A DNA stretch of 64,000 nt from the NCBI RefSeq assembly GCF_037081775.1, contig NZ_JBAMHQ010000001.1:992001-1056000 (forward strand), given 5' to 3'. The position numbers and the translations under genes are program-made. Positions 1,414-5,014 of the stretch are shown piece by piece. The DNA comes from Haladaptatus sp. ZSTT2 (lineage in GTDB: Archaea; Halobacteriota; Halobacteria; Halobacteriales; Halococcaceae). Below the pieces are notes generated by a model. That model did no database searches, was not told where the DNA came from, and was given only the letters and a program-made list of their open reading frames with translations. Position 1 is the first letter of the stretch; each line of letters opens with the position of its first letter.

Positions 1414-2175
1414 CTAGAGTCCCGTCGGTTCACCGATGAACGCTGTCTCCAGTCCCCACTGTTCGGTGAGGCTCTGGAGCGCACGCACCCCGAACGTCTC
1501 GGTCGCGTAGTGGCCAGCAAGCACGACGTGGATGCCCGCTTCCTTCGACTCGTGGTAGGCAGGCTGTTTCCCCTCGCCCGTGATGAGCGCGTCTACGCCC
1601 ACCGCTTCTGCTTCCGGGAGCCAGTCGGTTCCGCTCCCGGTGATGATGCCGATATGCTCGATTTCGTCGGGACCGTGGTCGAGTATCTGCACGCCCTGCC
1701 CGCCATTGTCGAGGCCAACGAGTGCTTCGCGGAGGTCAGTCACGGAAAGCGGGTCGGGAGCCGACCCACGAAGCCCGATGTATTCTGCAGCCTCCGCACC
1801 GAATCGCTCGCGGTCTTCGAGCGCAAGCAAGTCTGCGATACCGGCGGCGTTGCCGAGTTCTTCGTGCCCGTCAAGGGGGAGGTGTGAGGCGTAAAGGGCG
1901 ATGTCGTTCTCCAAGAGCAGGCGAATGCGCTCGTAAGTCGCGCCGGTCACGCGCTCGATACCGCCCCACGAGAGGCCGTGGTGGACGACGAACACGTCCG
2001 CCCCTTCGTCGGCCGCAGCTTCGATGGTCGAGACGGCGGCGTCCACGCCGAAGGCGACGGTTGAGACGTCCTTCTCGTCGGGGCCGACCTGCAATCCGTT
2101 CGCGCTCACGTCGAACGCGTAGTCTGCGGTGCGAAGGCGCTCATCGTAGCGCGAGACGAGGTCAGTGAGTTTCAT
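1414..2175 (-). CDS. Nif3-like dinuclear metal centre protein
   Basis: 253-residue member of the Nif3/YqfO/YbgI family, cytoplasmic proteins with a two-metal centre; some are annotated as GTP cyclohydrolase I type 2, but the physiological reaction is unsettled. Visible metal-site motifs are VVHHGLSWG (His65, His66), SHLPLDGH (His98, Asp102, His104) and the C-terminal LAGHYATETFGV segment. Length is normal for the short single-domain form. The ATG at 2175 lies about 27 bases from the AT-rich element at 2198-2205, so the mRNA is probably leaderless. It sits between dys and the eIF5A pair, but a role in hypusination is not shown. Confidence 0.9.
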   Translation of the reverse strand: MKLTDLVSRYDERLRTADYAFDVSANGLQVGPDEKDVSTVAFGVDAAVSTIEAAADEGADVFVVHHGLSWGGIERVTGATYERIRLLLENDIALYASHLPLDGHEELGNAAGIADLLALEDRERFGAEAAEYIGLRGSAPDPLSVTDLREALVGLDNGGQGVQILDHGPDEIEHIGIITGSGTDWLPEAEAVGVDALITGEGKQPAYHESKEAGIHVVLAGHYATETFGVRALQSLTEQWGLETAFIGEPTGL

Positions 2176-2197
2176 GGATTCAAATTAGCCACCAACG

Positions 2198-2205
2198 TTA
2201 AGAAA
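2198..2205. promoter_or_regulatory. Shared TATA-like box for two divergent transcripts
   Basis: TTAAGAAA (CGTTAAGAAA in context) lies about 27 bases from the Nif3-family ATG reading left and about 25-29 bases from the start of the first RNA hairpin (2227) reading right. It is the only good TATA candidate in the divergent gap, so one AT core may serve both directions. Based on position only. Confidence 0.4.
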
Positions 2206-2223
2206 TGCGGCGATGACAAAGCG

Positions 2224-2397
2224 ACTACCCGCCTTCGCGGGTCGGACAACGGAGTTGATTCCCAATGGGAAAATTCCGCAAAGCCGCATTCGTTTGGCGT
2301 CGATTACCTCGACGAACAAAGAATCGGATTGTCCGAACAGCACGGGGACTCGCACGCCGGGTGACCCCCGGGTAATAGCCGGCCCCGTTCCCGTTTT
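2224..2397 (+). ncRNA. Candidate structured non-coding RNA
   Basis: A stretch of about 171-174 bases folds almost completely by perfect short stems. They are a hairpin ACCCGC (2227-2232)/GCGGGT (2237-2242) and a closing stem CGGACAA (2243-2249)/TTGTCCG (2329-2335). Inside that stem are two arms: CGGA-TTCCC/GGGAA-TCCG (2250-2278) and CCG-ATTC...GAAT-CGG (2284-2327) capped by CGTCGA/TCGACG (2298-2303/2309-2314). A final stem ACGGGG (2342-2347)/CCCCGT (2383-2388) contains CCGGG/CCCGG. A T5 run at 2393-2397 fits an archaeal terminator, and a TATA-like box lies at 2198-2205. No tRNA, 5S, 7S or RNase P signature was recognised. The 129-codon reading frame across it does not look like a protein. Confidence 0.5.
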
Positions 2398-2413
2398 TAG
2401 GTTGAAAAGTAGA

Positions 2414-2474
2414 GTGCTAAGCCCTCTCCCTCAAGGAGCGAACGAAGTGAGCGAGTACGGAGGGGATACAGCAC
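2414..2474 (+). repeat. Left-end imperfect hairpin of the TnpB element
   Basis: GTGCT (2414-2418) pairs with AGCAC (2470-2474), and CCCTC (2422-2426) pairs with GAGGG (2460-2464), giving a long interrupted stem. Subterminal hairpins like this are the recognition structures of IS200/IS605 elements. Confidence 0.5.
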
Positions 2475-2543
2475 CCGCACGAGTTGCAAACATCCTAATC
2501 CATACCATAAATACACTCTGTTTCGTATATTTTGACAAGTCGT

Positions 2544-3824
2544 ATGGAGTACAGTCCACACTTCCGCTTGTTGCCCACCGAGAAGCAACGCGAAGACCGT
2601 GACTGGACTCGAAACACCGTACGACAAGTCTACAATCACGGCCTCTACCGATTCAATCAAATCCCCGAATCCGAGGGAACCGTGAAACAGAGAGTCCGAC
2701 AACTCAGAAATGAGCTACCCGAACTCAAAACGTGGTGGACAGACCTGCAAGACGTGTACTCGAAGGTCTTGCAAACCCACATCGAGCGCATCGCTCGAAA
2801 CATCACCAATCTCGGGAAACTCAAAGCGAAAGGCTACAACGTCGGCTCGTTGAACTGGAAGAAACCACGAGAGTTCCGCAGTTTCACGTACAACCAATCA
2901 GGCTTCAAACTCGACCACAAGAGTGGCCCGAACGGACGTGGGTTGCTGTACCTCTCGAAAATCGGCTGGATTCCAATCCGCCTCCACCGCGACATCCTCG
3001 AAGACGCCGAAATCGCGGAAGTCACGGTAAAGAAAGAACCCACTGGCGCATGGTACGCCTCGTTCTGCATCGACGTAGAAGAACCCGTGAAACCACCAGT
3101 CGAATCACTCTCAGTGGACGACTGTGTGGGTATCGACCTCGGAGTTTTCAACTACATCCACGACTCAAACGGTGTTGTCGTTGACCGTCTTGACCTGTCC
3201 GACGACCGAGACCGACTCGAACGCGAGCAACGAGCGTCGTCTCGCAAAACATACGGGTCGAAAAACTGGGATAAGCAACGTCGGCGAGTGGCGAAAGTCC
3301 ACGCTCGGATGAACGAGATGAAGTGGGACTTCAAGAACAAACTCGCACACTACTACACGACGCACTACAAGGCTGTGTTCCTCGAAGACTTGAACGTTAA
3401 AGGGATGCTCGAAGGGGCGCAGAACGCCCGCAACAAGGCCGAAGTCGGGTGGCGTGACCTCATCACTATTTTCAAGCACCACGGTCGGAAGAACGGGTGC
3501 TACGTGGTCACAGTCAAACCAGAGAACACGACCTTAGATTGTGCGTCATGTGGAACATCGGTGTACAAGCCGTTGTGGGTTCGTGGGCATTCGTGTCCGT
3601 CGTGTGGGTTTGAAACGGATAGGGATTGGAATGCGTCTCTCAACGTCCTCAGTCGAGGACTCAAGAAACTAGGAGTGGTTCACTCCGAAGACACGCCTGT
3701 GGAGACTGCAACCGCTATGTCCACCGACGGTGGCGATTCCTCGTCCATCGTTGTGGATGCAAGTCGCGTCACAGAAGCAGGAAGCCCCGTCCTCAAGGAA
3801 GCAACGCGAAGCGTTACTGAGTAG
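2544..3824 (+). CDS. tnpB: RNA-guided endonuclease TnpB
   Basis: 426-residue TnpB-family protein, in which a right-end-derived RNA guides a RuvC nuclease. The N-terminal helix-turn-helix/wedge part begins MEYSPHFRLLP. RuvC-I is VGIDLG (Asp198), RuvC-II is FLEDLN (Glu281), and RuvC-III is DRDWNASLN (Asp361). A four-cysteine zinc ribbon is CASC (333, 336) and CPSC (351, 354). All catalytic residues are present, so it is probably active. I use the ATG at 2544 rather than the TTG at 2532. TATA-like ATAAATAC (about 2506-2513) and TATATTTT (2526-2533) lie upstream. The 3' end of the gene overlaps the presumed guide-RNA scaffold. Confidence 0.93.
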   Translation: MEYSPHFRLLPTEKQREDRDWTRNTVRQVYNHGLYRFNQIPESEGTVKQRVRQLRNELPELKTWWTDLQDVYSKVLQTHIERIARNITNLGKLKAKGYNVGSLNWKKPREFRSFTYNQSGFKLDHKSGPNGRGLLYLSKIGWIPIRLHRDILEDAEIAEVTVKKEPTGAWYASFCIDVEEPVKPPVESLSVDDCVGIDLGVFNYIHDSNGVVVDRLDLSDDRDRLEREQRASSRKTYGSKNWDKQRRRVAKVHARMNEMKWDFKNKLAHYYTTHYKAVFLEDLNVKGMLEGAQNARNKAEVGWRDLITIFKHHGRKNGCYVVTVKPENTTLDCASCGTSVYKPLWVRGHSCPSCGFETDRDWNASLNVLSRGLKKLGVVHSEDTPVETATAMSTDGGDSSSIVVDASRVTEAGSPVLKEATRSVTE

Positions 3825-3839
3825 GGCGGGGTAGTTCAC
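3803..3839 (+). ncRNA. Right end and presumed reRNA (omega RNA) 3' scaffold
   Basis: AACGC (3803-3807) GAA GCGTT (3811-3815) is a perfect hairpin inside the tnpB 3' end, followed by GGGCGGGGTAGTTCAC up to the element end. In characterised TnpB systems the guide RNA spans this right end and takes its guide from the flanking DNA. Here the guide would start at 3840, inside the agmatinase 3' coding end. The 5' limit of the RNA cannot be seen. Confidence 0.5.
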
Positions 3840-4636
3840 GCTGAATCGGCGTGTGAGAAGACGAATTCTCTGCACAGTTTCGCCCCGAGCGTCGCCGTCT
3901 GCCCGTCGTCGCGGTCGTTCACCTCAACCACGTCGAAGCCGACGGCATGTGGGGCGACCTCTCTAACAACATCACGCATCTCACGCGGTGTGAGGCCGTA
4001 CGGTTCCATCGTCCCCGTCCCCGGGGCGAAGCCGGGGTCTGCGGCGTCGATGTCCACGCTCAGGTAAACCGCACCGTCGCCCTCGTACGTCCACTCGGCC
4101 ACGTCTTCGGGGGGAATTACGGTCACGTCGCCGTCTGCGGCGCGTTCCCACTCGGCTTTGTTGCCCGTTCGCGCGCCGAGGATGATGGCCTCGTCTGTGA
4201 CTTCGAGGGCGTGGCGGGTGACGGTCGCGTGGCTGAGTGGGTTTCCAGCATATTCCTCGCGGAGGTCGAGATGGGCGTCGAGACAGACGAACGTGTCGGG
4301 GGCGGTTGCTCGCACGCCCGCCACGGTCACCGTGTGCTCGCCGCCAAGGAGGATGGGAAGCGCCTCGTCACGCTCGATATCGGTGACCATCCCCTGTAAG
4401 AAGTTGAGGTAGTCAACCGCGTCGTCCCACGCGTGGAGGTCGCCCTCGTCTGCAACCTGCAAGTCAGTAAAATGCGCGTCCGTCCGGTGGTCGTAGTCGT
4501 CAAAGTTCTCCGCGTACTGCCGGATGCGTCCGGGGCCGAATCGGGCCCCCGGCTGGAACGAAGTAGAAATGTCAAGCGGCGCGCCGAGAATGACGTACGA
4601 AGCGTCGGTGCGAGAAGCCAGCGCGCCCGGGAACAT
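3836..4636 (-). CDS. speB: Agmatinase-like ureohydrolase (eIF5A hypusination)
   Basis: 266-residue ureohydrolase of the arginase/agmatinase superfamily, with the full set of two-manganese ligands: GGEHT (His101), DAHLD (Asp120, His122, Asp124) and SVDIDAAD (Asp195, Asp197). In Haloferax volcanii a gene of this type next to eIF5A is reported to finish deoxyhypusine formation from an agmatine intermediate; I infer the same role here. The ATG abuts the eIF5A stop (TAA immediately followed by ATG), so the two are co-transcribed. The stop codon (3836-3838) and the third base of the last sense codon lie inside the TnpB element right end, yet the C-terminus looks unaltered. Confidence 0.93.
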   Translation of the reverse strand: MFPGALASRTDASYVILGAPLDISTSFQPGARFGPGRIRQYAENFDDYDHRTDAHFTDLQVADEGDLHAWDDAVDYLNFLQGMVTDIERDEALPILLGGEHTVTVAGVRATAPDTFVCLDAHLDLREEYAGNPLSHATVTRHALEVTDEAIILGARTGNKAEWERAADGDVTVIPPEDVAEWTYEGDGAVYLSVDIDAADPGFAPGTGTMEPYGLTPREMRDVVREVAPHAVGFDVVEVNDRDDGQTATLGAKLCREFVFSHADSA

Positions 4637-5014
4637 TTAGATAATTTTGCGCTGGTCGTCCATCTCGAGGTATTCGATTTCGTCTTCCGGCGTCAGCGTC
4701 TTGTCGCCGGGAACCTTGATGGAGAAGGTTTCGTAGGTATCGAGGTCCATGACCTGAGCGACGTCGGAGCTTTCGACGCTCACGACCTGTCCCTGTTTTC
4801 GCTCGATAATTGGAATCCAGACTTTTGCGTCGACTGGCTGGGAGAAGCTACGCTTTTTGCTGTCGAAGACGCCCTTCCCCTCGACACGGGCCTTTGCACT
4901 GCCGTGCTTGCCGGGCTTTGCCGTGCTGTAGGAAGTGATGAGACACGGAACGTTGTTGATCATTACGTAGCTACCTTCCTGGAGGTCGCGGACCTCGCCT
5001 TGTTGCTTCGCCAT
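4637..5014 (-). CDS. eif5A: Translation initiation factor 5A (aIF5A)
   Basis: 125-residue archaeal eIF5A, which relieves ribosome stalling. The N-terminal SH3-like domain carries the modification loop KPGKHGSAK, with Lys36 as the hypusine site, followed by a C-terminal OB-fold (about residues 68-125). Length is normal. First gene of a two-gene unit with the agmatinase-like enzyme. The ATG at 5014 gives the usual MAKQQ start. Confidence 0.97.

Follow-up and report, generated by a model that had tools for sequence, protein, structure and literature searches.

A 174-nt stretch between nif3 and a TnpB element very probably specifies a short, structured mRNA that encodes a cationic microprotein of two helices. 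This confidence covers the mRNA and its product, not what the product binds. The stretch lies in the window, by which we mean the whole 64,000 nt of Haladaptatus sp. ZSTT2 DNA that was analyzed, and a preliminary description proposed it as a small structured RNA. A discrete short structured transcript is still plausible. However, the conserved core of the stretch is a protein-coding ORF, and the reading of that core as a noncoding RNA therefore fails. In the model that we favor, the gene would be very short, with a promoter, a leader containing a hairpin and the Shine-Dalgarno sequence, the ORF of 36 codons, and a terminator formed by a stem and the T run (Table 1). Transcription would yield a structured mRNA of roughly 150–170 nt, whose structure probably stabilizes or regulates the short message, and the product would be a cationic microprotein whose two helices meet at a conserved Leu-Pro kink. 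This microprotein family is well supported, haloarchaeal, and apparently new to description.

Table 1. Positions in the window of the small gene, its elements, and its neighbors
Feature	Position	Strand	Basis
NIF3/DUF34, divergent neighbor	1414..2175	-	PF01784
TATA-like element	2195..2206	-	21-22 nt from NIF3 start in most relatives having the element
Leader hairpin ACCCGC-CTTC-GCGGGT, or promoter palindrome	2227..2242	+	found again in several other clades, with a different stem sequence
Closing stem, 5' arm CGGACAA	2243..2249	+	conserved within the genus only
Shine-Dalgarno-like GGAGTTGAT, 5 nt before ATG	2251..2259	+	sequence; aligned homologue leaders
Small ORF, 36 aa, ATG...TAA, MGKFRKAAFVWRRLPRRTKNRIVRTARGLARRVTPG	2265..2375	+	translation; homologues; synonymous bias
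Closing stem, 3' arm TTGTCCG, within ORF	2329..2335	+	stem projection on homologues
GC-rich 3' stem overlapping ORF end, then T5, terminator-like	2342..2398	+	fold; T-rich stretches after stop in many homologues
TnpB (IS1341-type) element between small gene and agmatinase; TnpB ORF 2532-3824	2409..3836, ends approximate	+	empty site in G017, L002
Agmatinase-like gene, convergent neighbor	3836..4636	-	PF00491
Translation factor aIF5A gene	4637..5014	-	PF21485

Selection on the small reading frame

Patterns of substitution among homologues make it nearly certain that the small ORF is a coding gene. Among pairs at least 90% identical, differences at the three codon positions number 31, 19, and 146, placing 146 of 196 at third positions. 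Synonymous codon changes outnumber nonsynonymous ones by 136 to 44, whereas a null in which the same substitutions are redistributed gives 55 and 129, and the synonymous bias persists in pairs at 70–90% identity. All 48 distinct coding sequences begin with ATG, all three stop codons are in use, and W11 is invariant across the 48. Most copies have GAGGTGA, or a sequence close to it, ahead of the ATG; in the window, GGAGTTGAT stands there. The homologues share a start and a frame under purifying selection, as members of a conserved microprotein family do, and the synonymous bias, conserved ATG, and usual Shine-Dalgarno sequence amount to a coding potential that a noncoding RNA family would lack.

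Of the six frames, +0 has the fewest amino acid changes at every distance. All homologues also lack stops in the antisense −1 frame, but that frame is less conserved, and we rejected it as a gene because it shows more amino acid changes than +0 at every distance. An overlapping 129-aa ORF in the +2 frame (2213–2602) contains stops in several homologues and was set aside, as was a sigma-70 promoter scan of the region, which is not applicable to archaea.

A coding outcome has precedent, since in Haloferax volcanii seven annotated or putative sRNAs encode small proteins of 31–116 aa that mass spectrometry detected, two of which were seen on Western blots as well (PMC12482152). As in the present case, these are short haloarchaeal transcripts taken as noncoding, yet coding. 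Unlike that set, which rests on protein data, the present family is inferred from conservation, and none of the H. volcanii proteins could be matched to it.

Structure of the predicted transcript and its ends

RNAfold assigns the 174-nt stretch −72.8 kcal/mol, a z-score of −3.35 against dinucleotide shuffles, of which 1 in 200 folds equally well. By comparison, control folds of random 174-nt windows from the related loci have a mean z of −0.30, and 0 of 140 fall below −3.3. Thus, the structure is not a product of chance. The perfect stems of the preliminary description, including the 7-bp closing stem and the 5′ hairpin, are all present in the sequence, and so is the GC-rich 3′ stem followed by a T5 run, although the run occupies 2394–2398, one nucleotide off its original placement. 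No known RNA family had been recognized, and Rfam likewise gave no match at the gathering score, and searches at both thresholds returned no described family, the best match (mir-67, E = 0.62) being meaningless.

Conservation of the stems, which had been named as the test that could refute a structured RNA, divides these elements. In a gapless projection on homologues from outside the genus, 121 of 315 closing-stem cells can pair (0.38 versus 0.35 for random), which is at chance, and the three-way junction largely fails. The two arms of the junction are paired at 0.48–0.49 outside the genus against a random 0.35, modestly above chance, and this excess falls in DNA constrained by protein sequence. 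Over the proposed core of closing stem and arms, the conserved pairing with compensatory changes that marks a structured noncoding RNA family was not seen. The 5′ hairpin survives, recurring in GC-rich form with changed sequence in several clades (ACCCGC/GCGGGT, CCTGCC/GGCAGG, CACCTGC/GCAGGTG, and TCCCC/GGGGA). It is significant at 0.05 in 5 of 22 representatives (binomial p = 0.004), or in 3 of 22 when a narrower stretch is taken (p = 0.09). In one genus (L032, L036–L038, L079, L080), a TATTTTTA or TATTTA box stands directly before a CCCC-GGGG palindrome; judged by this arrangement, the hairpin there could be a DNA element between the TATA box and the transcription start and not RNA. A diverged subfamily, MSKFKTARRLWNRLPSSVKRRIIKKGRKLIRRK (L084, L085, L087, L088), has no GAGGTGA, and a TGTCTG/CAGACA-type hairpin ends ∼8 nt before its ATG.

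Across homologues, whole transcripts fold with a mean z of −1.65 (21 of 48 below −2), against −0.30 for controls, whereas the coding sequence taken by itself is close to chance (mean z −0.38). Thus, the folding excess involves the untranslated ends, and a transcript more structured than the typical control window could accommodate an RNA function besides coding. Several clades have a leader motif, such as CGAGCG, that pairs with the 3′ UTR immediately ahead of a T-rich stretch, and within one genus both partners differ among CGAGCGG/CCGCTCG, GAAAAGCG/CGCTTTTC, and GGAAAGCGA/TCGCTTTTT. Pairing of leader and 3′ UTR from the same genome scores 21.55 versus 18.69 for mismatched genomes (22 representatives), a comparison that differences in G+C among genomes can inflate. 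Because the permutation p is 0.0001 with wide windows but 0.09 with narrow ones, these compensating changes are only suggestive of a leader-3′ end helix. Many clades show a weak helix or none, among them the window's genus (p = 0.19–0.98 per genome), and no clear helix is seen in the window's own copy.

A TATA-like box at 2198–2205, offered earlier as the promoter of the RNA, does exist. Its constant spacing of 21–22 nt from the NIF3 start codon, in most relatives having it, indicates that it is probably at least the nif3 promoter; perhaps it is bidirectional.

Distribution and genomic neighborhood

Both other sampled species of the genus carry the locus at 94% and 91% DNA identity, and weak DNA matches at the same place in two other families begin at the ATG with the frame open. 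A profile from a narrow alignment recovered four loci in the genome contigs. Of 392 sampled Halobacteriales genomes, 58 gave a homologue with a five-sequence profile (E = 0.01) and 51 with a 23-sequence profile (E = 0.001). Clear full-length homologues (30–42 aa), nearly always single copy, occur in about 48 of the 392 genomes; the cultured species Halomarina halobia and Haloprofundus marisrubri are among the carriers. The homologues from profile searches span about 18 genera in six families, with the consensus MGKFRKAxRxWRRLPRxTKRRIxRKxRRxxRR; distant peptides include MGKFRKAFFVWRRMPRSAKRRITRTARRVVRRVTP (G255) and MGKFRSALRVWRRLPRRTKRSITRKMRRVLRR (G100), to be compared with MGKFRKAAFVWRRLPRRTKNRIVRTARGLARRVTPG in the window. 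The sole duplication seen is in G338, with two copies on different contigs (L084, L085), one beside a partial agmatinase match. No carrier was found outside Halobacteriales in 247 sampled genomes of the phylum. Phage, plasmid, and viral collections yielded no relative, and as far as those collections show, a viral or plasmid gene is rejected.

The preliminary description correctly placed the stretch in a hypusination neighborhood: the order DHS–NIF3–agmatinase–aIF5A is seen (PMC5178350), and Pfam confirms DHS, NIF3/DUF34, agmatinase, and aIF5A. The synteny is nif3, small ORF, agmatinase, and aIF5A, and in most carriers the small gene diverges from nif3 and converges with agmatinase. The role of the agmatinase-like protein at this aIF5A-modification locus is still open (PMC5178350). 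Nearly every genome has NIF3 (154 of 155), but the small gene occurs patchily. Many genomes that lack it have a NIF3–agmatinase gap of 2–160 nt, even within one genus (L137, L138, and L140 versus L035). On an agmatinase tree, its presence changes at least eight times, a count that is illustrative given that noncarrier genomes were chosen for absence of the gene. This patchy presence argues against an essential role in translation.

The TnpB element starts ∼10 nt beyond the T run, with G017 as an empty site. Its left flank (2393–2410, TTTTTAGGTTGAA) and its right flank (3835–3846, TTCACGCTGAA) resemble one and the same ∼10-nt segment of the empty site, as though insertion had repeated a short stretch.

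The peptide and its possible roles

Asp and Glu are absent from 37 of 44 distinct proteins, and Lys plus Arg average 44%. The window peptide has a pI of about 12 and a net charge of about +12 to +12.5; the pIs of NIF3, agmatinase, DHS, and aIF5A are 4.3–5.2. AlphaFold2 predicts helices at 3–13 and 16–33 around Pro15 (mean pLDDT 84, pTM 0.40). The helices present hydrophobic faces in a Lys/Arg-rich peptide, with no hydrophobic transmembrane stretch. Pfam and NCBIfam searches returned no family for the small protein, and the PDB held no relative by sequence or by fold. A weak local match to MIGRI (NCBIfam NF047648; 12.2 bits, E = 0.15) falls well short of the curated 28-bit cut-off and probably reflects composition only. 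Zinc-finger microproteins of Haloferax such as HVO_0758 are likewise haloarchaeal and <70 aa, but they carry two C(P)XCG motifs (PMC10716476), whereas the present family is Arg/Lys-rich with no cysteine in any member seen.

As to function, we would put at roughly even odds that the peptide binds a polyanion, with rRNA or the ribosome first, judging from its charge and its neighborhood. A net charge of about +12, the usual absence of Asp and Glu, and an acidic proteome suggest that it may be an accessory translation factor that binds nucleic acid, with rRNA or the ribosome as the likeliest target; DHS, agmatinase, and aIF5A as neighbors fit this role. The main alternative is membrane activity. 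Membranes could be bound just as well by a peptide that is cationic and amphipathic. The peptide would then resemble a halocin, or a type I toxin whose production is repressed by folding of its mRNA. Its length of 30–42 aa, its Lys/Arg-rich helices with hydrophobic faces, an mRNA that is structured and in some clades pairs its leader with its 3′ end, and the patchy occurrence are all in keeping with such a peptide. However, the gene keeps a fixed chromosomal locus, nearly always in single copy, the phage, plasmid, and viral collections hold no match, and a transmembrane stretch is missing, so we regard a membrane-active product as improbable.

The RNA itself invites two further readings. In one, a noncoding regulatory RNA with a three-way junction would carry an ORF by accident. 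The z of −3.35 for the stretch, the mean of −1.65 against −0.30 for homologue transcripts, and the recurring leader hairpin speak for it. It is nevertheless scarcely credible given the strong synonymous bias, the invariant ATG with its usual Shine-Dalgarno sequence, a closing stem at chance outside the genus, and a coding sequence that alone folds near chance. In the other, a refinement of the microprotein mRNA and not an exclusive alternative to it, the leader, the leader-3′ end helix, or the hairpin would also have a role as RNA; it might, for instance, let the arginine-rich product regulate its own synthesis or shield the ends against exonucleases. The same-genome excess in pairing and the compensating forms within one genus favor this possibility, but the narrow-window p of 0.09, the weakness or absence of the helix in many clades (the window's among them), and the potential effect of G+C on the scores leave it doubtful. 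A specific version, in which a bifunctional minimal mRNA with paired ends has its leader hairpin bound by its own arginine-rich, ribosome-associated peptide, tuning translation with the adjacent aIF5A and hypusine genes, is a long shot. The microprotein mRNA remains the reading that we prefer.

In genome scans, a candidate noncoding RNA that rests on structure can be a small mRNA, and a codon-substitution test is needed before an archaeal sRNA is called. An almost acid-free, strongly cationic peptide is unusual in acidic proteomes and points to a specific polyanionic target. Overall, the new family sits at a locus devoted to the modification of translation factor 5A.
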